A DNA stretch of 64,000 nt, taken from the IMG/VR virus record IMGVR_UViG_3300025133_000049, positions 1-64,000 of that record. One strand, given 5' to 3'. Below the pieces are notes generated by a model. That model had not been told where the DNA came from, ran no database searches, and saw only the letters and a list, made by a program, of their open reading frames with translations. Position 1 is the stretch's first letter. Each line of letters starts with the position of its first letter. This DNA is from a virus. The position numbers and the translations under genes were made by a program. This document shows positions 10,946-25,695 of the stretch, one piece after another.

Positions 10946-11470
10946 TTATATTTTTATAATTCTGTGTTCTATAAACCAATCAGCATGTGGCGCGTCAATT
11001 AACTCAGCGTCATCAGCAACCCAGTCGCCTATTAAACCCTGTAACAGGTTTCTTACTTGAGATGTTCTATCTAAGGCCTGTAATATAGGACTAGATAAGG
11101 TAAACACCCTGGATTTCTTATTGAATGGTAATGTAGAACTTTTATAAATCTTTTGTTTTGCCTCTTTACTCATATGTGAATATTTTCCTTTCACAAATAG
11201 CCTAGAGTCCTTGATGTGCTCCGACGGTATAGTAAATATTACGTATAGCTGTTCTTTTAATTCTAGTTCAGATATATAATATTTATTATGCCGATACGTT
11301 GGAGTAAGCATCTTTCTTCTGAGATGTACATATAACTTTAACCCATCCTTAGAGACCAATGTAGTTTTAAACGGTCTCCCGAATGTTTTCTTATTGATCC
11401 CTAATAATGGGAGTAAGTAGTATGTACATAAATTATCTCCTTTCGGAATAAATAAAGACATATTAATCAT
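10946..11470 (-). CDS. hypothetical protein, 174 aa, between exonuclease and ligase
   Basis: Begins MINMSLFIPKGD; Met4 is an equally good start. The first 100 residues alternate hydrophobic and basic (LYVHLRRK, YYISELELKEQLYVIF), suggesting a beta-rich domain. The second half contains a basic Lys/Ser-rich stretch (KQKIYKSS, FNKKSR) and an amphipathic helix (LQALDRTSQVRNLLQGLIGDW). It is sandwiched between 5'-3' exonuclease and ligase with 5-bp and 1-bp gaps, so a DNA-repair or replication accessory role is plausible. No family recognised. Confidence 0.75.
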   Translation of the reverse strand: MINMSLFIPKGDNLCTYYLLPLLGINKKTFGRPFKTTLVSKDGLKLYVHLRRKMLTPTYRHNKYYISELELKEQLYVIFTIPSEHIKDSRLFVKGKYSHMSKEAKQKIYKSSTLPFNKKSRVFTLSSPILQALDRTSQVRNLLQGLIGDWVADDAELIDAPHADWFIEHRIIKI

Positions 11471-11475
11471 GATTT

Positions 11476-12345
11476 TTAATTTAAACCGAATAGATCAGCA
11501 GCTGAAGGGCTACTCTCTTTGAATAACGAAGCTGTATCATCTACCGGTGCAACCAAGTGATTTGCATATTGATTCATGATAGTAAGGAGTTCTTTTGAAG
11601 CCTCTGCAGGCGCATAAGAATCATTTTTACCATTCAATAATCTAACCATTTGATAAGTTCGTATTGCTCGTTCTTTACCTATACGTAAACCATAGGCATC
11701 ACCATATGCTTGCATAACTACCTCAACCATCTCTTGTCTGGTTTTACAGTTTGCTAACATTTTCAATGCAGTTTTATCACCTACTCGTTGTATACCACAT
11801 AGTTCTCCTGGCATATCCGTGGGATCTCCAGTAAGAACTTGTCTGTATAAACAAAGGTCACCATAATATGGTGAAGACACTTGCCATCTATCCTCATTTT
11901 TCATATGAGCTTTAAATGGGTTATAGTGTGTACAAGGTATTTGTACCATATCCTTATCAGCAGAGACTACAACTACTTTGTCGTATCCTACATATCTGGC
12001 AAGGAATGCACATGCATCATCAGACTCTACGTGCTTGAGACCATACAACCCTGCTTCAATAAAAGCATCTATGATTGTAGGTTTCCAGCATTCTATAGCT
12101 TCTGATCGTTTTCTATGGCCTTTATACTCAGGTAAGATTTTATTTCTAAAGTTATCAAAGCCTTCTATTTGATAGAATCCTATGGTTGTTTTAGCTCTAG
12201 ATTGTTTTCTTACCTGATTTATAAAGGAGTGAACGTTACTCTTTGTTGCTTTAATGTTATCCCTGTTCCCGGCGCTAAATTGCTTATTGGCGACAATATG
12301 CAAAATAGAATCGAGATCAAGGATAGCAAGTTCATAATTAATCAT
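11476..12345 (-). CDS. 5'-3' exonuclease (flap-endonuclease/RNase H-like PIN domain), 289 aa
   Basis: Acidic metal-binding residues fall in the FEN/T4 RNase H order: LDLDS at ~10, ESDDACAF at ~109, SADKDM at ~131, GDPTDMPG at ~175. The last is followed by a helix-hairpin-helix-like GIQRVGDKTALKML that binds DNA. It removes RNA primers and flaps during replication. ATG at 12345 is used, not the TTG just before it. The C-terminus is a flexible Ser/Pro/Asp tail ending SPSAADLFGLN, similar to the end of the putative ssDNA-binding protein at 17092-17937 (PAADFFGAQG), perhaps a shared partner-binding motif. It overlaps the rIIB-like gene by 8 bp. Confidence 0.9.
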   Translation of the reverse strand: MINYELAILDLDSILHIVANKQFSAGNRDNIKATKSNVHSFINQVRKQSRAKTTIGFYQIEGFDNFRNKILPEYKGHRKRSEAIECWKPTIIDAFIEAGLYGLKHVESDDACAFLARYVGYDKVVVVSADKDMVQIPCTHYNPFKAHMKNEDRWQVSSPYYGDLCLYRQVLTGDPTDMPGELCGIQRVGDKTALKMLANCKTRQEMVEVVMQAYGDAYGLRIGKERAIRTYQMVRLLNGKNDSYAPAEASKELLTIMNQYANHLVAPVDDTASLFKESSPSAADLFGLN

Positions 12346-13480
12346 CAATAAGGTCTTCTAATTCATCCTCAAGTTTGCTAATAACTTCAGCTTTTTTATC
12401 GATAGCTTTTTTCATTAACTCTTTAAGTCTCTCTTCAGAAAGTTTACCATAATCAGAAGAATGATATTTACCTCTTAATTCAATGTCAGAATCCAAAATA
12501 TTATTTGGGAATAATGCATCTACTCTAATGGCTGATCCTTCACTCTGGAATGACAAGATATCAGATGGATTTACAAAACAAGTAAGTACGTGAGTACCAC
12601 ACTGTCTATAACAGTCAATATAACTTTGACCTCCAATATATAAACCACCACCACCAAAGCTATTGCTTAGGTTACGTGGAGCTTCTTCAGGAAGATATTG
12701 CATCTCACCTACTTTGTAAACATAACCTAACTGAGAACCTGAAAAGAATTTATGTCCACCACTCCAAATAGCTGGAGTAAATACCATATCTTCTTTAAAA
12801 TCAGCTTCTGGAAGTTTAGCTTCTTCAAGAATTTCACCTGTAACAGAATCCACTACTGGAGCGTGTTTAGGTAAATCTTTCTTAACTTTTGTCCAGTTCC
12901 CATATTCGTCTTCTTCCATTACATATTCCCAAGTTACTTGTTCTGCAACTTTATAGGTAGCCAATAGACCCTCATCCGTGATAGCGATATCATCAAATGT
13001 AGCTAATTCCTTAGCTGCTTCTTGAGTATATCCATCTTCTGCTACTATTTTCTCTGCCAACTCCCTATCTACGAATTTAGCATTAATATAAGTATCAAAA
13101 TAATTACCCATAACCTCGTTATATCTAGGGTTAGATAATAATCTAGCCCAAGCTTTCAATACTGGCATGAAGTCAATATCCATATCATAACTATCTTCAA
13201 TATACTTTACTAAAGCGGGAATGATTGGATGTTTAGATCTTTTATCACCTAGTTCTAGGAAATACTCCTTAGTTGATGGATTGTAGGATAGATACTCATT
13301 AGTACCTGCAATGATAGTACCTCTACTACCTTCTACATAAGCAAGAACTTCTTCTGCTGATGAGTCTTCTTCTTTAAAAGTTGATAAGGCTTTCAAAGTT
13401 TCTTCAGTTTTGGCAACGCTAAAAGGTTTCCCGTCTACTGATCCTGTAATTGTGTTTTCTAATTTTCGATAAATTAACAT
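12338..13480 (-). CDS. rIIB-like protein, 380 aa
   Basis: Contains the features I associate with phage rIIB proteins: a central LSNPRYNEV / helical block, then TDEGLLATYKVAEQV (the 'G.L..YK.V' strand), DEYG.W, a long loop, and a GSQLGYVYKVGEMQYL segment. The Cys/His positions near ~285-295 (DCYRQCGTHVL) and FVNPSDILSF correspond to the rIIB C-terminal core. A charged coiled-coil ends the protein. It directly follows a GHKL ATPase of rIIA type, overlapping it by 7 bp, so the pair is translated together. In T4 the rII proteins are membrane-associated and guard against superinfecting prophages; the function here is unproven. Confidence 0.7.
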   Translation of the reverse strand: MLIYRKLENTITGSVDGKPFSVAKTEETLKALSTFKEEDSSAEEVLAYVEGSRGTIIAGTNEYLSYNPSTKEYFLELGDKRSKHPIIPALVKYIEDSYDMDIDFMPVLKAWARLLSNPRYNEVMGNYFDTYINAKFVDRELAEKIVAEDGYTQEAAKELATFDDIAITDEGLLATYKVAEQVTWEYVMEEDEYGNWTKVKKDLPKHAPVVDSVTGEILEEAKLPEADFKEDMVFTPAIWSGGHKFFSGSQLGYVYKVGEMQYLPEEAPRNLSNSFGGGGLYIGGQSYIDCYRQCGTHVLTCFVNPSDILSFQSEGSAIRVDALFPNNILDSDIELRGKYHSSDYGKLSEERLKELMKKAIDKKAEVISKLEDELEDLIDD

Positions 13481-15996
13481 GTCTCTTGATTTTTAAATAT
13501 GATAAATTCTTTTAATAATTCTATTGCTTTTTCATTTACACCCTGATAATGGCTAATGTCCAGCTGATTTAACAACGGTTCTATTTTGTCGAATCGTTTA
13601 AGTTCCGCTTCCAATGTATCTATGAACTCCTTGTCATAGGCTTCTACACTTAAAACGTCCTCTGTATTAAAGCATTCTTTTGCTTTAGCTGCAATTTCTT
13701 CTGGACTACCATCCGCTACTACATCTTGGAATACAGCTAATTTTTCCAAGTATGTTCTAATTTCCTCAGACACATCTGATTTCAATGCTTTCGAGAATAC
13801 CTCATCTAAATTACTATTACGCCCCTCTAAACGAGCTTTATAGTCATCTACATTAGTATTTTCTAATAACTTTTTCATCAATTGCATTTTATTAGCATAA
13901 TGTCCTCGTCCTTTTAGTAGCTTATAAAATCGATCCATTGTATTCAAGGATCTAAGCTCTTGTCCTAACATAACTTCTTTTGTTTCAGGGTTAAAGGTAT
14001 TAAAATAATCTGTAATAAATGTACAGTAAGGCGCAAAATGTTTAACAATTGGTTCAGCAACATAAATAACTCTAGTGTTAACTTTTTTATGGGTACCACT
14101 ATAATATTTACCTGCTTCAACTATCAATCCAAGATCTTTATATTTAGAGGTACATAGAACTGTTTCTATATCTTCCTTATCAAATGTTTCTCGAATATCA
14201 GCAATCTTAACTGTCAAATTACTATTCTCTCTAGAGTCTACACCATAGCTATCCATTCCAGTAATATATTTCTGACGATAGAATACCTCTTTATTCAATC
14301 TACGTAACTTAGCTAAAGCATTACCACTGGTAACACTAGCACCATCCAGGTTATCCTCATCATCAACATCTTCAACAAACTCAAATGTCATAGTATCAAG
14401 CTGTAAAGCTCTTGTATATAATAATTTATGAGTCCAAACCCCTACTTTAAATGTATTAAATTCTACATCGTTAAAAGTGACCTCATCCCTAAGTCTAGTA
14501 TTATTAGGTCTGATATATACGAAAGATTCAATATCATTATTATCCATGATACTTTGTGCTTTCTTTGGACCTAATGCAGAAGTATTAGCCTGAACTAATA
14601 TGGAATTAGCTATATTATTAAAGCTCTTTACACGGTTCTTAGAGATCCTTTTACCGTTTAATGAAACAGTATAAACATCATGCTTATAAAAGATAAGTTC
14701 AAATAACTCATCAGTTAATTCATGATTCATTTCTACGTCATCAATTGTAAACTTAGCTTTAGGCTTAATGTCTGACATATCCAAGAACTCAGAAAAGATA
14801 CGAGTAACTTTATCTGCACTTGATTTACGTAATTTAGCATACCTGTTATTGATCGATAATAAATCCTTTGCATCATCATCCTCACCTTCTAAGGCTTTCT
14901 TAGATACATGCGCTTTGGCTTCATTTTTCGCTCTTTTGATAGCTTCTTTAATAGTATCCTTAGTCTTTGAGGTCCATTTTAATGTCTCTCTAGATTGAGT
15001 AATATCTACATCAGTAGCCCTAACTCTAATAGCTAATTCACCTCGTCTTCTTTCCATTTCAAGTTCATCCCAAGAGATGTTCCCGTAACATATGCCGTCC
15101 ACTAAAATATGTGGTGCATAATATGGAGAGGATTCAGGTATAATGATATTGTCAGATTCATAATAAGGATTAGCATTCAACATTTCTGTTTTAACTGTCT
15201 TATCATAATACCCTTGAGGGTAAGTAAATCTAACTCTATCTTTAAAGTATAGGAACTGTTCTTTTACAGCACTAATAAAAGCTTGAGAATTATGCTTCTT
15301 TACTTCTAGAGTAATAGTAACTCCATTAGACTCTATAGTAGGCTCCCAGAAAATACTCCTTACTTGAGTTTCTCCATTAGCCATTTGTACTGTCCACCTT
15401 TCTTCTTTACCATCAGACTTCTCCATAGTTACTGGTTCATAATCTGTCTTATAGATCATGAATTTAGTACGGTATCCCTCATAGGTAGTTTCCATAGTGA
15501 AAAACTCTACACCTGTTGCTAGACCTGCTTTGGCACCTGCGCCAAATTTACCAATAACATCTTTCATGTTACGTTTAGAAGAGAACCCTAATTTAAAGAA
15601 TCCTTTTAATCTGGATCCACCTAGGCCAACACCTCTATCAGTCACACTAATTGTGTCTCTGTTATTCCCTTCTTTATACTTTACGTCGATAAAGTCTCTA
15701 CTTGACAAGTAGTCTCTATCGTAATACTCAACATTAAATCCCGAGTCTTTCAATAGTTTACCATCCTGTCTTTGCTCATAGTAATTCTCTTCAGGTTCTC
15801 CGTCAAGAATTTTTAGTGCAATATTCCTTTCAGTAACAGCGTCAAGGCCATTACTTATAGTTTCTCTTACGAAACTTTTAATCGGATAGGAGTACATATC
15901 CTCCTGGATAGCCTGGAAGACTAAGTCAATAGCCCCTTCGTCTATTTCCTTTTTAATCCCAACATCTCCGTTGTTAATTTGTTCTAATACTGCCAT
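13474..15996 (-). CDS. rIIA-like GHKL-fold ATPase, 840 aa
   Basis: The N-terminal ~230 residues form a GHKL (Hsp90/MutL/histidine kinase) ATP-binding domain: N box ETISNGLDAV at ~46, G1 box DRGVGLGG at ~118, G2 box GKFGAGAKAG at ~149, the residues that bind Mg-ATP. A beta-rich transducer-like region follows (TRFTYP, HILVDG, DIDITQSRE-like), then long charged helices. Length and domain order match phage rIIA-type proteins, and a rIIB-like gene follows with overlapping ends. Likely roles are exclusion or DNA/membrane organisation during replication; this is by analogy with T4 rIIA. It lies between the primase and rIIB genes in one operon. Confidence 0.8.
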   Translation of the reverse strand: MAVLEQINNGDVGIKKEIDEGAIDLVFQAIQEDMYSYPIKSFVRETISNGLDAVTERNIALKILDGEPEENYYEQRQDGKLLKDSGFNVEYYDRDYLSSRDFIDVKYKEGNNRDTISVTDRGVGLGGSRLKGFFKLGFSSKRNMKDVIGKFGAGAKAGLATGVEFFTMETTYEGYRTKFMIYKTDYEPVTMEKSDGKEERWTVQMANGETQVRSIFWEPTIESNGVTITLEVKKHNSQAFISAVKEQFLYFKDRVRFTYPQGYYDKTVKTEMLNANPYYESDNIIIPESSPYYAPHILVDGICYGNISWDELEMERRRGELAIRVRATDVDITQSRETLKWTSKTKDTIKEAIKRAKNEAKAHVSKKALEGEDDDAKDLLSINNRYAKLRKSSADKVTRIFSEFLDMSDIKPKAKFTIDDVEMNHELTDELFELIFYKHDVYTVSLNGKRISKNRVKSFNNIANSILVQANTSALGPKKAQSIMDNNDIESFVYIRPNNTRLRDEVTFNDVEFNTFKVGVWTHKLLYTRALQLDTMTFEFVEDVDDEDNLDGASVTSGNALAKLRRLNKEVFYRQKYITGMDSYGVDSRENSNLTVKIADIRETFDKEDIETVLCTSKYKDLGLIVEAGKYYSGTHKKVNTRVIYVAEPIVKHFAPYCTFITDYFNTFNPETKEVMLGQELRSLNTMDRFYKLLKGRGHYANKMQLMKKLLENTNVDDYKARLEGRNSNLDEVFSKALKSDVSEEIRTYLEKLAVFQDVVADGSPEEIAAKAKECFNTEDVLSVEAYDKEFIDTLEAELKRFDKIEPLLNQLDISHYQGVNEKAIELLKEFIIFKNQETC

Positions 15997-17035
15997 TTTC
16001 GTAATTATTAATTAATTGCTTTATATATTCAAGCACCCTAGCTTGTTGACCTAACTGTTTACCCGCTGAGTAAAAGTCTGTCGGATCTTTTTGTTTAATA
16101 TTTTCATCAAAGACGATCGGAATTAGCCAGGGATACAAATCTGTATAGCGCTTCTGTGCATTAATTCCTGCTTCGTCATTATCTAACCATATATAAACTC
16201 TCTTATACTTTTTGAATAGAACTTCCTTCATGAAATGATCACTTATATATGAGTTCTCGGAGGGTCCTGCTACGCATTCCCAACCAAAGTGTTCATATAA
16301 AAACATGATTTCCTTCATTGATTTAGTAATAATACAAAAGTCTTGTTCAAAACGCAGTTGCAATGCGCCTTCCACATAACCAGTTGCATAGTTATTTCGG
16401 AATTTGAACTTCTTATCTTCGAATGGATGATATATCTTATAGGTACCTAGAATTTCATAACTTATCGTTAAGGTTCTAGGGACTATAGTTACATGATCTG
16501 TTCCGATATAGTGCACTGCTTTAGGATTTTTACACTTATAGTACTGTCTGGTCTCAAAAGAGATATCCAGGTAATCCCAGTAGTTTAAGTAATCCTTTTT
16601 AGTTGCACCATCTGTTGTAATTGATATTGTAATAGGTTCCTTTCTAACCGGCGGCTTCTTAAGAAGATGTGGTTTGAAAGCTGCTACGTCTGCATCACCA
16701 AATCCTAAACCAAAATCAGAGTTTATCTGAAGTAAGGTTTCTCTTGGGTATGCGGGTTCTGCAACTCCACCTATCATTTGTGCGACAAAAGTAAATACAT
16801 CTCCAAAGTTACCAGTAGACTGGTCCTTGAACATGAGTTTATCTTCTTTAAATTTACTGTAAAACATAGAAAAACTAGGATCTGCATCACCTTGTCGCAG
16901 TGGGCTACTATACTTAGTATTTAGTTCTAACTCTTCTCCAATGTAAAAACTGAATATAGAGTAAGCATCTACATACTTGAGAATATTCGCCTGGGTCAGC
17001 TGGTTTTCTTCTACAAATTGTTTTAATATGTCCAT
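15974..17035 (-). CDS. DnaG-like primase (TOPRIM), 353 aa
   Basis: Residues ~30-110 resemble the N-terminal zinc-binding domain of DnaG in layout (SPLRQGDADPSFSMFY, FKDQSTGNFGDVFTFV), but the metal-binding cysteines are absent. The TOPRIM domain is visible at ~228-330: CIITKSMKE (acidic first strand), then YIWLDNDEAG with the D-x-D pair at ~280-285. Phage primases with this fold make RNA primers for DnaB-coupled forks; the DnaB gene is two genes upstream. A UUCG terminator sits immediately upstream (17052-17073), so primase and rII genes may be made at a lower level than the genes before it. The stop overlaps rIIA by 23 bp. Confidence 0.85.
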   Translation of the reverse strand: MDILKQFVEENQLTQANILKYVDAYSIFSFYIGEELELNTKYSSPLRQGDADPSFSMFYSKFKEDKLMFKDQSTGNFGDVFTFVAQMIGGVAEPAYPRETLLQINSDFGLGFGDADVAAFKPHLLKKPPVRKEPITISITTDGATKKDYLNYWDYLDISFETRQYYKCKNPKAVHYIGTDHVTIVPRTLTISYEILGTYKIYHPFEDKKFKFRNNYATGYVEGALQLRFEQDFCIITKSMKEIMFLYEHFGWECVAGPSENSYISDHFMKEVLFKKYKRVYIWLDNDEAGINAQKRYTDLYPWLIPIVFDENIKQKDPTDFYSAGKQLGQQARVLEYIKQLINNYENGSIRTN

Positions 17036-17044
17036 GTTTATTTG

Positions 17045-17073
17045 GGTTAAAAGCCCCTACCGAAGTAAGGGCT
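17045..17073 (-). terminator. internal UUCG hairpin terminator/attenuator in the replication operon
   Basis: In the - strand RNA: stem AGCCCUUAC-UUCG-GUAGGGGCU (9 bp, one U-G pair; 17052-17073) followed by UUUUAA. It lies 19 bp past the stop of the putative ssDNA-binding gene and 17 bp before the primase start. The imperfect pair is G-U only when transcribed leftward. It probably reduces readthrough, making the upstream protein more abundant than the primase. Confidence 0.8.
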
Positions 17074-17091
17074 CATTCATAACTATTCTCC

Positions 17092-17937
17092 CTATCCTTG
17101 TGCGCCGAAGAAGTCAGCTGCTGGGCCAGGGGCCGGAGCTGTCAAATCAGGTTGTGCAGTTGTAGGTTGTACAGGTGCTGCAGTAACAGGCGGTGTAATG
17201 CTCACTGCAGGTTCTACCGGAGCAGGTGTTTCTGCAACACCAAACAACTCAGCACCTTTTACGGCTTCTTCTGTGGTTGTTGTTGCTTCATCACCAGCTG
17301 CTGGATTAGGATCGTTTTTACCATTGTCAATTTCGTACTTGGTAAATGCAATCTTACTTGCTGCTTTAGGGATAGACATAGGTTCAATCCAAGTATCGAA
17401 AGAACTACGCGATATAACTGCATAATTCTTAAGTTTAGATTGTCTTAGAAACTTCATTCTAAAAGTTATACCTCCATTGTACGCATTAGCTTTAGCTAAA
17501 AAGTCTACAAACTTGTTACCAAGATTGGTTACTACTTTACCTAAAAATTCTTTATTAGTTAAAGCATTTACAGCTTTAGCCATTTGTTCAGGTGCAATAC
17601 CTAATCCGTCGAACATCTTAGTCCCACCGATGTATGAATCTACAGTTGCTTCAGGAGCATATAGCTTAGCTATAGTCATGAACTGATCTTTCATACGTAG
17701 TAAGTCTCCAGCAATATCAGCTGCAGTTCTTGGGTTGTTATTGAAATCTGTCAAGTTTGGGGGATAAAATCTAAAAGAAGACTTCATTACATCAGCAGTA
17801 GCATTAGATTGGAATGCGGCCAATAGAGCTGAATCATCCTGAATAGACTCAATAGCCAATTCCAAGGTTCCGTGCTCGTTTACTTTGGTATCACTTGATA
17901 ATTTCAAATTTTCGTGAATTCCTACTTGTATTAACAT
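17092..17937 (-). CDS. putative ssDNA-binding or annealing protein with Ala/Pro tail, 281 aa
   Basis: Residues ~1-205 form a compact domain containing KFLRQSKLKNYAVISRSSF and a Trp near ~190; the remaining ~75 residues are a disordered Pro/Ala/Thr linker ending PAADFFGAQG. A folded core plus disordered tail with a conserved tip is the layout of single-stranded DNA-binding proteins, and the gene lies between primase and Sak4-like ATPase. The linker also contains GAELFGV, a second copy of the tail motif. It is followed by a terminator, which fits a highly expressed protein. No OB-fold sequence signature could be confirmed, so the function is inferred from architecture and context. Confidence 0.55.
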   Translation of the reverse strand: MLIQVGIHENLKLSSDTKVNEHGTLELAIESIQDDSALLAAFQSNATADVMKSSFRFYPPNLTDFNNNPRTAADIAGDLLRMKDQFMTIAKLYAPEATVDSYIGGTKMFDGLGIAPEQMAKAVNALTNKEFLGKVVTNLGNKFVDFLAKANAYNGGITFRMKFLRQSKLKNYAVISRSSFDTWIEPMSIPKAASKIAFTKYEIDNGKNDPNPAAGDEATTTTEEAVKGAELFGVAETPAPVEPAVSITPPVTAAPVQPTTAQPDLTAPAPGPAADFFGAQG

Positions 17938-18696: not shown

Positions 18697-19932
18697 TTAT
18701 TTTCCTTGTGCTATCTCTGCATATACTTGCATTAACTCTGGTGTATCTGGAAGAGGTAGTGTAGTAAAGTTATTCACTTCACCCATAAACTTCATACCAA
18801 AATACTTACCATCGATACCGAAAGTATTCTTCAATACATGGTAACTCCTGAATCTATTAAATCCGGAAGGTGCCATCATACCACCTGTAGTTTGATTAGC
18901 CATTATCTGATAACCACCATACAACCCTTCGGCTGAATAAGCTTTATATCTAAATGGATCAAACAAAGCAGCTACTACATCAGCATCATGTGACATCTGA
19001 CTGGAGCCTTGGAAGTCCTCTAGTTGGGGAGATAAATCTCCTCCGTGCATCTTTTGACGCGTTGAGTCTCCTAAACCTCTATTCAATTGTGACACTACTA
19101 CTGGACTAAATCCATACAGGTCTCGCGACTCTGCCAAGAACACACTAAGCTCATCAAGCTTGGATTTGTTCTCAGAGAAATTGGTTCCACCTATTAATCC
19201 TATACCATCAATTACTATAAACACAAATGTCTTAGGTTTATGTGGAAAATACATATGATCATTTTTATATAATCGATATGTCTTCTCTTTATACGTAAAC
19301 TCTAAGTACTCACGCTTACCTGTTTTAGTATCCTCCATTTGTCCGGAGAACTCTACAGTCAGTAAAGGTGAATCATCTATTAACAAGCCTTCGTCGTTAG
19401 TGTGGAAATAAGTTCCAAGCTCTCGAGCACGGGCATGTACTGTTTGTTTAATGTTCTCAATAGATTGCTTACCATCATGTATGTCTACGTATTGTAAGAG
19501 TTCGTCAATTTCCTCATCATATGAACGGATTATATTGTATCCTGTTTCATTGATAGGCCGTTTACCCCAACCCATTAGATCATCAGCTGATAACTGGTAT
19601 CCATGGTCTCGGTATAACATCCAACTTACAAACTTAGCATGCTTGAACATCTTCTTTCTCTCTAAGGAATAGTATATTACTTCCCAATGAAAGTCAGAGT
19701 CCTCTTTGTGATCTTTTACAAAACCACTCCACGGCGCCAATACATAACTGTAATCAACAAATGATGTCTTACCAGATCCAGTTGCTCCACCAATTAAATG
19801 GTAACGCGATTGCATTAGGTTATAGATATCATCTATCCTGTCTAACGGATTAGGAATGTATGTAACATCACCTCTCAGTGCTGCATCTACCTGAGTTAGA
19901 AACCCAGCTTTATATCCTTGGTTTAACCCCAT
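18697..19932 (-). CDS. DnaB-family replicative helicase, 411 aa
   Basis: RecA-like ATPase with Walker A GGATGSGKTSF at ~46-56, Walker B FVFIVIDGIGLI at ~235-246, motif H3-like VVVSQLNRG at ~276-284 and a SSQMSHDADVV segment (~308). A catalytic Glu-like residue is in YYSLERKK near ~91. There is no N-terminal primase or DnaB N-domain beyond ~40 residues, as is common in phage DnaB versions. An inserted ~100-residue segment between Walker A and B contains DDLMGWGKRP. It unwinds duplex DNA at the fork together with the TOPRIM primase. It overlaps the upstream gene by 10 bp. Confidence 0.88.
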   Translation of the reverse strand: MGLNQGYKAGFLTQVDAALRGDVTYIPNPLDRIDDIYNLMQSRYHLIGGATGSGKTSFVDYSYVLAPWSGFVKDHKEDSDFHWEVIYYSLERKKMFKHAKFVSWMLYRDHGYQLSADDLMGWGKRPINETGYNIIRSYDEEIDELLQYVDIHDGKQSIENIKQTVHARARELGTYFHTNDEGLLIDDSPLLTVEFSGQMEDTKTGKREYLEFTYKEKTYRLYKNDHMYFPHKPKTFVFIVIDGIGLIGGTNFSENKSKLDELSVFLAESRDLYGFSPVVVSQLNRGLGDSTRQKMHGGDLSPQLEDFQGSSQMSHDADVVAALFDPFRYKAYSAEGLYGGYQIMANQTTGGMMAPSGFNRFRSYHVLKNTFGIDGKYFGMKFMGEVNNFTTLPLPDTPELMQVYAEIAQGK

Positions 19933-20450
19933 GATCCATTAGATTTACTTTGATTAGTATTTTTAAACCCTCCTGTTTGATACAAAGTATACGCCTCTAC
20001 AATCAATCCTTCGTTAACAAAGTTCTTGAATGCTTTAGGTCTCTCTGTAGTTTTATAGTAATGTTTAATAGAATTAATCAAATCTACTGGTATAATATCA
20101 TCAGAGTCAACTAGGTTACCTATAATATTTATAGATTCTTTATCCATACCACGTAGCATATATGCTCCATCCGGTGATTGCGCAGGAACTTCACATATAT
20201 TCATGAATGCTAGTCCTCGAGCTCTACCTTTGGCATCGATTATTTCAGAAGGCCAACCAGCGCCGGCTGTAGTGGGATCCATAAGCTCCTCTATATTTAG
20301 CTTAGCTTGCTTTTTCTCCTCTACTTTGACAACTGGAATTACTTCCTCCTGTTCTAGATGTTTATACTTCTCGGTTATAAAGAAACCACCTCCAATGTTG
20401 ACAATGATATTCTTGTCTTCCATTAATTGTACTATTTCATCTTTTGTCAT
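19923..20450 (-). CDS. hypothetical replication-associated protein, 175 aa
   Basis: N-terminal ~35 residues (MTKDEIVQLMEDKNI...GGGFFITEKYKHL) look like a small helix-strand module, followed by a Glu/Lys-rich linker and a globular C-terminal part (GWPSEIIDAKGRARGLAFMNI, SIKHYYKTTERPKAFKNF). It overlaps the DnaB helicase gene by 10 bp and follows the SF2 helicase gene by 2 bp. Tight coupling to the helicase makes a loader or accessory role attractive, but no helicase-loader motif is visible. Function unknown. Confidence 0.72.
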   Translation of the reverse strand: MTKDEIVQLMEDKNIIVNIGGGFFITEKYKHLEQEEVIPVVKVEEKKQAKLNIEELMDPTTAGAGWPSEIIDAKGRARGLAFMNICEVPAQSPDGAYMLRGMDKESINIIGNLVDSDDIIPVDLINSIKHYYKTTERPKAFKNFVNEGLIVEAYTLYQTGGFKNTNQSKSNGSWG

Positions 20451-22550: not shown

Positions 22551-24788
22551 TTAATGTACATTACCCCATGAGTCACCTGATGCAGCCTCGGCTCTAAGCA
22601 AAGGAAATCCTGCTAATTTACCAGCTAATTCCATGAAGTGTTCTAATTTCTCTTTAGCTAAAGTTGTATACGCCGGCCTAGATTGTACAAAGTATTCATC
22701 ATGTACAGGAAGCAAAAGCTTAATGTTATCTTGATGATTGTTTTGAATAATCCAACGTCTGAGTAATACTCCAGCTATTTTCAAGATAGAACTACCGGAA
22801 CTTTGAATAGGTGAATTATAACTAGCCCTCTCGATGCTTGCATGCTCTCTCGGGTTGTTAATTTTCCACGTATCAAAATAACGTACTCTACCAAATACCG
22901 GTTCTATGATATAACCGTTCTTAACAGCAAATGAACCAAATCGATCCATCATTGCTTGTATGTTAGGTAACTTCTCGAAGAAGTTTTTCAATATATCAGC
23001 TGCTTCACTCTGATCTATCTTAAGATTAAATGCAAGTTTAGGTGCACTAATCCCATAAATAGAACCAAATGATACTGCTTTAGATTGTCCTCTTAATATC
23101 TTATGATCAGGGCATTTACATTGTCCTTCATCTATCTCATGCTGGCAATCTGGTAATGTAGCATCTATCCAACGTTGGCCAAATATCAGCTTAGCATTAA
23201 TACTATGCAAATCTTTACCTTGAGCTACAGCATCTAACCAAACTTGTTCATCAGATAATGTTGCAGTCACTACTAGCTCTTCACCACTGTAATCTGCACC
23301 AATACAATCAAATCCTTCATCACCGATGAAACATCTTCTATATACATCTGCGTTAGGCATATTCAATAAACTAGGATTAGTAGAACTTAACCTACCTGTC
23401 GCTAGTATTTGTCTAAACCTGGTCCTGAACTTACCATCTACCTCCACATGCTTAGTGTAGAAACTCTTACCAAATGATTTAATCTGATGAGCTACCTCAG
23501 CAAACTTCAAATAGTGTGGAAATATAGGATGAGTATCAATATGTTCTGCTATGATGTCTTTACCTGATGATTCAATACTAGCATCAATTGCTTGAAATAT
23601 TTTCAGCTTTTGAGTAGGACTGGCCCAGTTAATGGTAACTTCATCTTTAGCTCTATAGAACCCGTTATCAGTTAAATAGTACATATAATTATCTATGACA
23701 AATTGATCCAAAGATTTACCAATAGTTGCTTTATTATCCTTATTTTGAGCAATAAGTAACTTAGCTACAGCAAAATGGGTGTCAAATGTTGTAGGATACG
23801 AGTGTGAGTTCCAAGCTTTACCGTTGAGCTTACCCTTAAGTTCACTAGGAAATTCAGGGTCCTTTAACTCTAACCATTGTTTTAAAGCTACTTTAGATGT
23901 GTTCTCAAAAACCTCTGAATACACCATACCTAAGATATGTTTCTTCTCTTTAGTTGATGACCATAATTTTTTAGTAACTTCATCTTCAAGCCCAATCCAA
24001 TCATTGTCTATCAGGATATCCATAAATTCAGCTCTAGCTATACTATTAAGTTCTTCCAGCTCTGCCTCATAAATAGGTCTCACTGTGTCTTCAATATCAA
24101 ACCACCTGTCTTTATTTATACGTACTCCTTCATACTCCATGTCAGCTACAACTTTAACGAACTCATTCTCCCACCACATAGTCTTCATTAGACCCCGGTG
24201 CTTTCCGAGTTTAAGTCGTTTGTCTTCAGCTTTCATTTCAGCTATTTGCATTCTCCTGATTTTACCAGAGAACACTACATCAACTGCAGCATACCTGATT
24301 TGATCATCGTCATAAGGTTCTTCGGTACCAAATGTTGTCTGCTCTTCCTTTGATATGGTATGACCAAAACGACGCTCAATAATAGCAGCTAAGCCATTAT
24401 ATCCTTGTTCCTGTCCTAATCCATTATTCAAAGTTTGTTCAGCTAACATGGTATCCCAGACTCTCTCCAGTTGTACACCTTGCTTCTTGAATACTTGGTA
24501 ATCAAAACTTACATTTTGTATAATACAATACTTCTTTTTAATCACATTTAGTAAAGCTTGTTGTTCTACTTGAGAACATGCTTCCCATTCTATTACCCAC
24601 ACAATAGATCCATCTTCATCGGCTATTGATATGACTTTAAGGTCTCGTTGGAGAATACTATCGACTACATTAGTCTCAGTATCCAGTCCAATTATATCGA
24701 TACCTTTAAGCCATTCAAGGCCGTGTCCTACAGCTACACTATCGTAGCTGCAGGAGTCTGTTCGACCTGTGAATAATATTTTAGACAT
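22551..24788 (-). CDS. DNA polymerase, family A with 3'-5' exonuclease, 745 aa
   Basis: Exonuclease motifs: ExoI GLDTETNV at ~35, ExoII QNVSFDYQVF at ~90, ExoIII YAAVDVVF at ~166. Polymerase motifs: A ADYSGEELV at ~497, B RGQSKAVSFGSIYG at ~567-580, C PVHDEYF at ~692. All catalytic acids are present, so this should be an active proofreading replicase of the T7/Pol I type. There is no N-terminal 5'-3' nuclease; the separate gene at 11476-12345 supplies it. Motif A has Glu-Leu-Val where Pol I has Glu-Leu-Arg. The gene overlaps the upstream putative ssDNA-binding gene by 8 bp. Confidence 0.95.
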   Translation of the reverse strand: MSKILFTGRTDSCSYDSVAVGHGLEWLKGIDIIGLDTETNVVDSILQRDLKVISIADEDGSIVWVIEWEACSQVEQQALLNVIKKKYCIIQNVSFDYQVFKKQGVQLERVWDTMLAEQTLNNGLGQEQGYNGLAAIIERRFGHTISKEEQTTFGTEEPYDDDQIRYAAVDVVFSGKIRRMQIAEMKAEDKRLKLGKHRGLMKTMWWENEFVKVVADMEYEGVRINKDRWFDIEDTVRPIYEAELEELNSIARAEFMDILIDNDWIGLEDEVTKKLWSSTKEKKHILGMVYSEVFENTSKVALKQWLELKDPEFPSELKGKLNGKAWNSHSYPTTFDTHFAVAKLLIAQNKDNKATIGKSLDQFVIDNYMYYLTDNGFYRAKDEVTINWASPTQKLKIFQAIDASIESSGKDIIAEHIDTHPIFPHYLKFAEVAHQIKSFGKSFYTKHVEVDGKFRTRFRQILATGRLSSTNPSLLNMPNADVYRRCFIGDEGFDCIGADYSGEELVVTATLSDEQVWLDAVAQGKDLHSINAKLIFGQRWIDATLPDCQHEIDEGQCKCPDHKILRGQSKAVSFGSIYGISAPKLAFNLKIDQSEAADILKNFFEKLPNIQAMMDRFGSFAVKNGYIIEPVFGRVRYFDTWKINNPREHASIERASYNSPIQSSGSSILKIAGVLLRRWIIQNNHQDNIKLLLPVHDEYFVQSRPAYTTLAKEKLEHFMELAGKLAGFPLLRAEAASGDSWGNVH

Positions 24789-25695
24789 TAGGTGCCCCTA
24801 AAGAGTTAGCCCAATCGTCTCCCGGATCAGCTGCAGGTGCTACATCGGTTGGAATACCTGGAATAGCAAAAGTTTCAGGTGCTTCTGTTGGCGCCTCATC
24901 AAATGTTACCGGTTCCTTAACTTCTTGTACAGGATCAGGAGTAGTAAATGGATTAGGTGTAGTTGGTACTACAACTTCCGATGCTACTACCTCAATTGCA
25001 TTTGCTGTATCAGTGTCTGCTTTATCAACATCAACTTCTCCATACTCAAAGTCAGTTCTTTTTATATCATTAGATCCTACCTCTTCAGCTTTAGCTTCAG
25101 CATTCATTTGAGCATCATCAGCTAGAACTAAAGGACAAATAGAGATATTCTTTCTTGTTACATAAGACATCTCACCTTTACGTGCTCCACCTGATATTAT
25201 TTTAGGTAAATGATATACACCATTATGTGATGTTATTACATTTTCAACAGCAAAGTTTAAGTCAACATAATCTTCAACTACAATACCGTAAGTAGATTCA
25301 ACTAAGGCAAGTAACTCTTTACCACCTTTACCACCACCTTGAGTCATTACATCTGATTTGGGTGTATTATCCTCATTAAAGGTACATGATCCGAATAAGG
25401 ATACCTTTGGGGCACTTTTTGGTACCAATGCTACAAATAATAATTTGGTTGGGATTTCTCCAATCATACCCCAATCATCAGAACTGAAGATATCAAGGCC
25501 ATTGCCCGGAACTTCAGATCCTTTGTTAGCATACTGTAAGTTCTCAGTAGCTACTAAAGTTTGACTTGGATATACTTTTCCATTTTTGTACAGTCTTAAA
25601 TCTGCACTTTCAGGGTTCTTTGATACTGTAGATCTCACAGGAGCTGCTTTAGCTACAGGTGTAAGTTCTATGTTGTTTAAAAAATCTAGATTCAT
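24781..25695 (-). CDS. putative ssDNA-binding protein with acidic tail, 304 aa
   Basis: The first ~195 residues form a beta-rich domain (LRLYKNGKVYPSQTL, LLFVALVPKSAPKVSLFGSC with a Gly/Lys loop GGGKGGKE) compatible with an OB-like fold. The last ~110 are acidic and Pro/Thr/Val-rich and end GDDWANSLGAPNV. The acidic disordered tail with a short aromatic tip, and overlap with the DNA polymerase gene, are what one expects of a phage gp2.5/SSB-like protein. No diagnostic motif is certain. The window has a second candidate (17092-17937), so one of the two may be a different replication factor. Confidence 0.55.
   Translation of the reverse strand: MNLDFLNNIELTPVAKAAPVRSTVSKNPESADLRLYKNGKVYPSQTLVATENLQYANKGSEVPGNGLDIFSSDDWGMIGEIPTKLLFVALVPKSAPKVSLFGSCTFNEDNTPKSDVMTQGGGKGGKELLALVESTYGIVVEDYVDLNFAVENVITSHNGVYHLPKIISGGARKGEMSYVTRKNISICPLVLADDAQMNAEAKAEEVGSNDIKRTDFEYGEVDVDKADTDTANAIEVVASEVVVPTTPNPFTTPDPVQEVKEPVTFDEAPTEAPETFAIPGIPTDVAPAADPGDDWANSLGAPNV

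Follow-up and report, generated by a model that had tools for sequence, protein, structure and literature searches.

A conserved aliphatic-phenylalanine motif on the C-terminal tails of a flap-type exonuclease and a putative single-stranded DNA-binding protein in a clade of crAss-like phages

Introduction

The flap nuclease FEN1 is recruited by a PIP box on its C-terminal tail. In phage T4, hydrophobic motifs at the C-terminus of phage proteins bind the gp45 sliding clamp, and in phage T7 the acidic tail of the SSB gp2.5, with its terminal F, gathers replisome proteins around a family A polymerase. Bacterial polymerases, ligase and repair proteins use the β-clamp motif, in which, according to a paper and a review, the final L/M-F residues are critical and the Gln is helpful yet dispensable, as in the AMSLF of the δ subunit (PMC13254535, PMC11139829). 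The replication of crAss-like phages is described as unknown in a published account (PMC10136315). Judged by titles and the opening lines of abstracts, searches of the open-access literature on phage clamp-binding motifs, crAss-like single-stranded DNA-binding protein (SSB) tails and crAss-like clamps listed no account of the motif reported here; likewise, in word searches of the texts, 'sliding clamp' is absent from a polymerase-swapping study and 'clamp' from a Crassvirales review.

Here we follow up an earlier note, made from one stretch of phage DNA, which had pointed to similar C-terminal tails on a 5'-3' exonuclease and two SSB-like proteins (hereinafter SSB1 and SSB2; Table 1). The tails are there as described, and the motif in its corrected form has firmer support than that first reading could give it.

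Results

The window analysed is a 64 kb stretch out of a 94,787-base virus record. Its major capsid protein is ~34-41% identical to capsid proteins of Suoliviridae crAss-like phages (E down to 8e-101 and below), and by this homology the phage is assigned to the crAss-like phages (Crassvirales); from that kinship its hosts are presumably Bacteroidota. A minus-strand module extending from 9 to 26 kb codes for an ATP-dependent ligase, the 5'-3' exonuclease, rIIB-like and rIIA-like proteins, a primase, SSB1, a Sak4-like protein, a DnaB-like helicase, a UvsW-like helicase (phrog_16 DNA helicase), a family A polymerase and SSB2. The rIIA-like and rIIB-like genes (12338-15996) thus lie within the replication module, with the exonuclease on one side and the primase on the other. 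As relatives we used a clade of related phages from IMG/VR scans, among which 14 SSB1 and 11 exonuclease sequences were compared after removal of near-identical copies (L012, L090, L091, L093, L094 and L096) and of partial rows (L098 and L101 for SSB1; L013 and L096 for the exonuclease). A twelfth, distant exonuclease (from the record of L006) was found later and stands outside the 11-row alignment A7. Searches of phage records with the window DNA and its SSB1 (megablast, tblastn), with the SSB1 of L006 and for further exonucleases yielded nothing useful, and a scan of genome contigs recovered no SSB1 relatives.

Table 1. Features of the replication module and of the related loci discussed in the text
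Feature	Position	Strand	Evidence
174-aa conserved protein, candidate phage-encoded partner	10946..11470	-	adjoins exonuclease in all relatives readable at both ends
5'-3' exonuclease (flap-nuclease family), 290 aa	11476..12348	-	phrog_107, E 1e-34; Pfam 5_3_exonuc_N, E 1.4e-10 (PF02739)
Exonuclease copy 2, AADLF, residues 283-287	11488..11502	-	L286 in 8/8 and F287 in 7/8 aligned rows
Exonuclease copy 1, TASLF, residues 272-276	11521..11535	-	F276 invariant, 11/11 in alignment A7
SSB1, putative ssDNA-binding protein, 281 aa, between Sak4-like and primase genes	17092..17937	-	gut crAss-like homologs
SSB1 C-terminal tail, predicted disordered, residues 213-281	17095..17301	-	low AlphaFold2 pLDDT
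SSB1 extreme C-terminal copy AADFF, residues 273-277	17107..17121	-	no counterpart in 13 other A5 rows
SSB1 putative ancestral tip position QPDLT, residues 262-266	17140..17154	-	P263 in 11/12 and L265 in 9/12 aligned rows
SSB1 linker motif GAELF, residues 228-232	17242..17256	-	F232 invariant, 14/14
SSB2 tip DDWANSLGAPNV, distinct conserved tip DW..[SD]L	24784..24819	-	D294 in 6/6 aligned rows
Gut crAss-like SSB1 homologs (examples)	L115:1369-1974, L116:1174-1785, L160-L172		adjoin Sak4-like gene

The window exonuclease ends SSPSAADLFGLN, while SSB1 ends PAADFFGAQG and carries GAELFGV further in; these tails, and that of SSB2, are present in the sequence as originally quoted. The pattern [AG]A[DE][LF]FG, which was set after the matches had been seen, has three occurrences in the 90 predicted proteins (28,149 aa), all of them in the exonuclease and SSB1 (shuffled mean 0.01). 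The real evidence for a motif is conservation in relatives, where F276 of the exonuclease (11/11) and F232 of SSB1 (14/14) are invariant. The consensus first proposed, A-[ADE]-[DL]-(L/F)-F-G, does not survive this comparison, as its A and G vary; what the alignments show to be conserved is a core of two residues, an aliphatic one and then F ([LIVM]F), usually in two copies per protein. With F also admitted at the first position ([LIVMF]F), the core is found in 13 of 14 SSB1 tails and 11 of 12 exonuclease tails, several of which have V, I or F instead of L/M.

The best conserved exonuclease copy is TASLF, which the earlier note had overlooked. Every one of the 11 rows has L, I, M or V ahead of F276, and pairwise identity in the tail columns other than F276 and L286 is 0.04-0.28, save F287 (0.75) and L275 (0.51), as seen in TASLF..AADLFGLN (window), LAELF..PTSLFK, TKSLF..TIELFTK, IQDLF..LLDLLK and VSELF..VTSVFM. 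The distant twelfth exonuclease is without the motif. In SSB1, the tail columns other than F232 have pairwise identities of 0.08-0.43, save P263 (0.83) and L265 (0.55), with examples such as GAELF (window), KNLF..QPELF, DNLF..KPDLF, SSLF..PPKLF and DNVFGGR; in L010, T precedes F232. The AADFFGAQG end, which the earlier note had taken for the tip, is private to the present phage (alignment A5). In a loosely aligned region further upstream, QPDLT aligns with QPELF, KPDLF and QPDLG of relatives, and on this alignment we read it as the ancestral SSB1 tip position, whose F has been lost in this phage.

Could this conservation reflect chance, or shared ancestry of tails that have no function? The motif is post hoc, the clade is small (11-14 distinct sequences), and the start of the next gene follows closely on exonuclease copy 2, whose conservation may owe something to a translation signal. 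Against this, the invariant F stands among strongly diverged neighbors (columns near F276 and F232 are mostly <40% identical), and the conserved Phe is encoded by both TTT and TTC, i.e., the codon changes synonymously and the residue is kept. Shuffled tails reached the observed motif count in 0 of 20,000 trials for SSB1 (13/14 observed) and in 1 of 20,000 for the exonuclease (11/11), figures that are optimistic because the rows are related. An unbiased search through 13 gene families for residues kept constant amid variable stretches returned F276 and L286 of the exonuclease and F232 and P263 of SSB1, together with a few unrelated residues in these two and in other families; the family A polymerase encoded by these phages yielded no comparable F. 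We consider a functionless origin the most improbable of the readings weighed here.

Another reading is that each conserved Phe docks on its own protein core, in self-inhibition or in competition with ssDNA, so that the two proteins would have come to resemble each other by convergence on something this simple. The loose core [SDEN][LIVMF]F does occur at chance level genome-wide (82 seen against 78.6 expected), as such convergence would allow, and bacterial SSB tails can fold back. However, the same core, usually doubled, recurs across the clade in two unrelated proteins of one module, and it is absent from the last 24 residues of all 73 exonucleases outside the clade (other phages from the same scan plus two named phages, 73 of 75 loci having given a complete protein). 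Further, the AlphaFold2 model of SSB1, in which residues 1-210 mostly have a pLDDT >90, places F232 at the edge of the low-confidence region. Self-docking is, in our view, unlikely. A predicted recruiting motif common to the exonuclease and SSB1 tails is well supported. The disorder that had been ascribed to both tails accords, for SSB1, with tail block means of pLDDT 41-59; the exonuclease tail is presumably disordered, going by its sequence. An exonuclease profile run against nine known crAss-like and Flavobacterium phages, in a search without a positive control, found no match.

The motif does not extend to SSB2, for which a looser version had been suggested. SSB2 (24781-25695, minus strand) has its own, different tip, DW..[SD]L, present in five of the eight aligned sequences and possibly a second docking motif; a single relative has ADSLF in the SSB2 linker. 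No PHROG or Pfam family was found for SSB2. Elsewhere in the module, a 175-aa protein (19923-20450) has an invariant C-terminal W; the helicase gene at 18697-19932 overlaps it, and the W follows from the ATGG of the helicase start and is thus no tip motif.

SSB1 likewise matched no Pfam or PHROG family, and Foldseek returned nothing at E <= 0.001. Its top fold match, a weak one, is PrgE, an OB-fold ssDNA-binding protein (Z 5.2, 108 aligned, rmsd 3.9); SSBs follow at Z 2.2-2.3. An SSB1 profile matched 3 of 10 records searched, namely cr118_1 (E 2.6e-8), cr115_1 (6.7e-4) and, weakly, cr272_1 (0.08). The homologs, annotated as hypothetical, adjoin Sak4-like genes, as SSB1 does in the present phage. 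All 18 gut homologs read, out of 33 phage records with one, end in [DG]LPF; because of this tip we take them for SSBs, and Suoliviridae probably encode their SSB, so far unannotated, as this hypothetical protein beside the Sak4-like gene. The cr118_1 homolog (L115:1369-1974) has, besides the LPF tip, an upstream NPVF, and is a possible intermediate of both tail types.

These gut proteins bear on the notion that the clade's tail is a degenerate bacterial SSB tip, still binding host SSB-interacting proteins. In its favor are the 18/18 gut homologs and an [LI]PF end in 16 of 19 Bacteroidota SSBs read (from 20 loci, L173 left out), the other three being without LPF. Yet the tip, defined as acidic residues followed by [LIVM]PF at the C-terminus, occurs in 0 of 26 tails, including 0 of 14 SSB1 sequences, and we rejected identity with it on this count; the host SSB tip is thus present in the gut proteins and missing from the clade. 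A terminal F is found in only 2 of the 26 tails, and the net charge of the last 10 residues ranges from -4 to +4. Moreover, the copies with the strongest conservation lie inside the tails and cannot offer the terminal carboxylate an SSB tip needs, and such a tip is not expected on an exonuclease tail. A degenerate SSB tip is accordingly very unlikely. The PIP box, Qxx[LIVM]xx[FYW][FYW], was rejected too (0/26 tails).

We next consider the β-clamp motif. None of the 26 tails has its consensus Q[LIVA]x[LM][FL], and a single one has the looser Qxx[LM][FL]. Among the Y-family polymerases of Bacteroidota, motifs such as EPELF, PQDLF, PLDLF and TMSLF resemble QPELF, KPDLF, IQDLF and TSSLF of the phages, and of 22 host pentapeptides assigned by eye 13 have the leading Q and nine have none (ten more are six-residue forms). 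On a profile of host clamp motifs, the phage copies score from -2.6 to 12.2 and those of the hosts, presumed to be Bacteroidota, from 2.7 to 16.0; the same profile ranks SSB1 8th and the exonuclease 9th of 90 genes. V precedes F in distant members, where a review gives L or M. Two further observations count against the clamp: the exonuclease of the L006 record is without the motif, and the family A polymerase shows no F conserved in this way. As the profile scores overlap at the weak end and the consensus is found in none of the tails, we class the motif as one that works like a clamp motif and not as a clamp motif proper.

Because none of the 26 tails has the canonical motif, we rate a partner encoded by the phage almost as probable as the host clamp. 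Here the motif would bind a replisome protein of the phage (a 174-aa neighbor, the family A polymerase, the DnaB-like helicase or the primase), in a private wiring that bypasses the host clamp. We find this reading possible: the Gln that helps clamp binding is nearly absent, the lack of the host-type SSB tip present in homologs fits a phage-internal network, and the 174-aa protein keeps its place beside the exonuclease (Table 1). This protein, the first candidate for a phage-encoded hub, matched no phage record and no family. Its AlphaFold2 model is confident (pLDDT 89.7), but the top fold match is at Z 2.2 and none is clear or informative, and some SSB1 tips, notably QPELF and KPDLF, resemble host clamp motifs, both of which count against a phage partner, although the lack of a fold match carries no information by itself. 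As for a clamp of the phage's own, whose absence favors the host clamp, a bacterial-type one was rejected (PF02768, 0/10 phage records, with a control that worked), no T4-type clamp was recognized in a search that had no working control, and a 380-aa neighbor tried as a clamp proved to be rIIB-like (hhalign probability 89, E 2e-6).

Discussion

The best explanation we can offer, and one we hold tentatively, is that the tails dock both proteins on one partner at the fork, most likely the host β clamp. The flap-type exonuclease and the SSB-like protein of the clade would each carry a disordered tail on which the docking motif mostly occurs twice, and both tails would bring their proteins to the common partner, so that coverage of ssDNA and removal of lagging-strand flaps take place together. 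The likeliest such partner, the host β sliding clamp, would be bound weakly through the paired copies, in the manner of δ through AMSLF, without a leading Gln. The analysis shows the tails, their conservation, the predicted disorder of the SSB1 tail and the lack of the host-type SSB tip seen in homologs; from these we infer that the motif has a protein as its ligand, that the exonuclease and SSB1 share this ligand and that it is the clamp.

A bolder reading starts from the lack, in this clade, of the SSB tip by which its gut relatives mimic the host. A phage-specific docking code common to the SSB and the flap nuclease might take the place of that tip, detach the SSB from the network of host SSB partners and couple the covering of ssDNA to the processing of Okazaki fragments on a single hub, be it the host clamp or a new phage protein; we put this forward as a conjecture with a reasonable prospect of being right, if not the better one. 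If true, the host-type LPF of the gut proteins versus the [LIVM]F of the clade would illustrate how, in nature, a phage SSB can change over between the host partner network and another. The tails lend themselves to a concrete and cheap test, in which peptides are offered to host DnaN and to the neighboring phage proteins.

Set beside the described systems, the clade's tails resemble the bacterial SSB tip (DDLPF in Bacteroidota) in that an SSB-like protein has a disordered tail with a conserved tip, and the gut homologs have exactly that bacterial tip; unlike it, the core in the clade is internal, has no P before F, is not consistently acidic and is shared with an exonuclease. Likewise, the PIP box of FEN1 is placed on the tail of a flap nuclease as here, with a Qxxhxxaa pattern that none of the 26 tails shows. 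T7 gp2.5 differs in that the tails of the clade are not consistently acidic and seldom end in F. T4, with its gp45-binding motifs, brings its own clamp, whereas none was recognized here by a T4-clamp search without a working control. In comparison with the β-clamp motif (QL[SD]LF; AMSLF in δ), the phage copies nearly all lack the leading Gln, have V, I, M or F before the final F, and are known from sequence only; like it, they are short, sit on flexible tails and close with an aliphatic residue and F.
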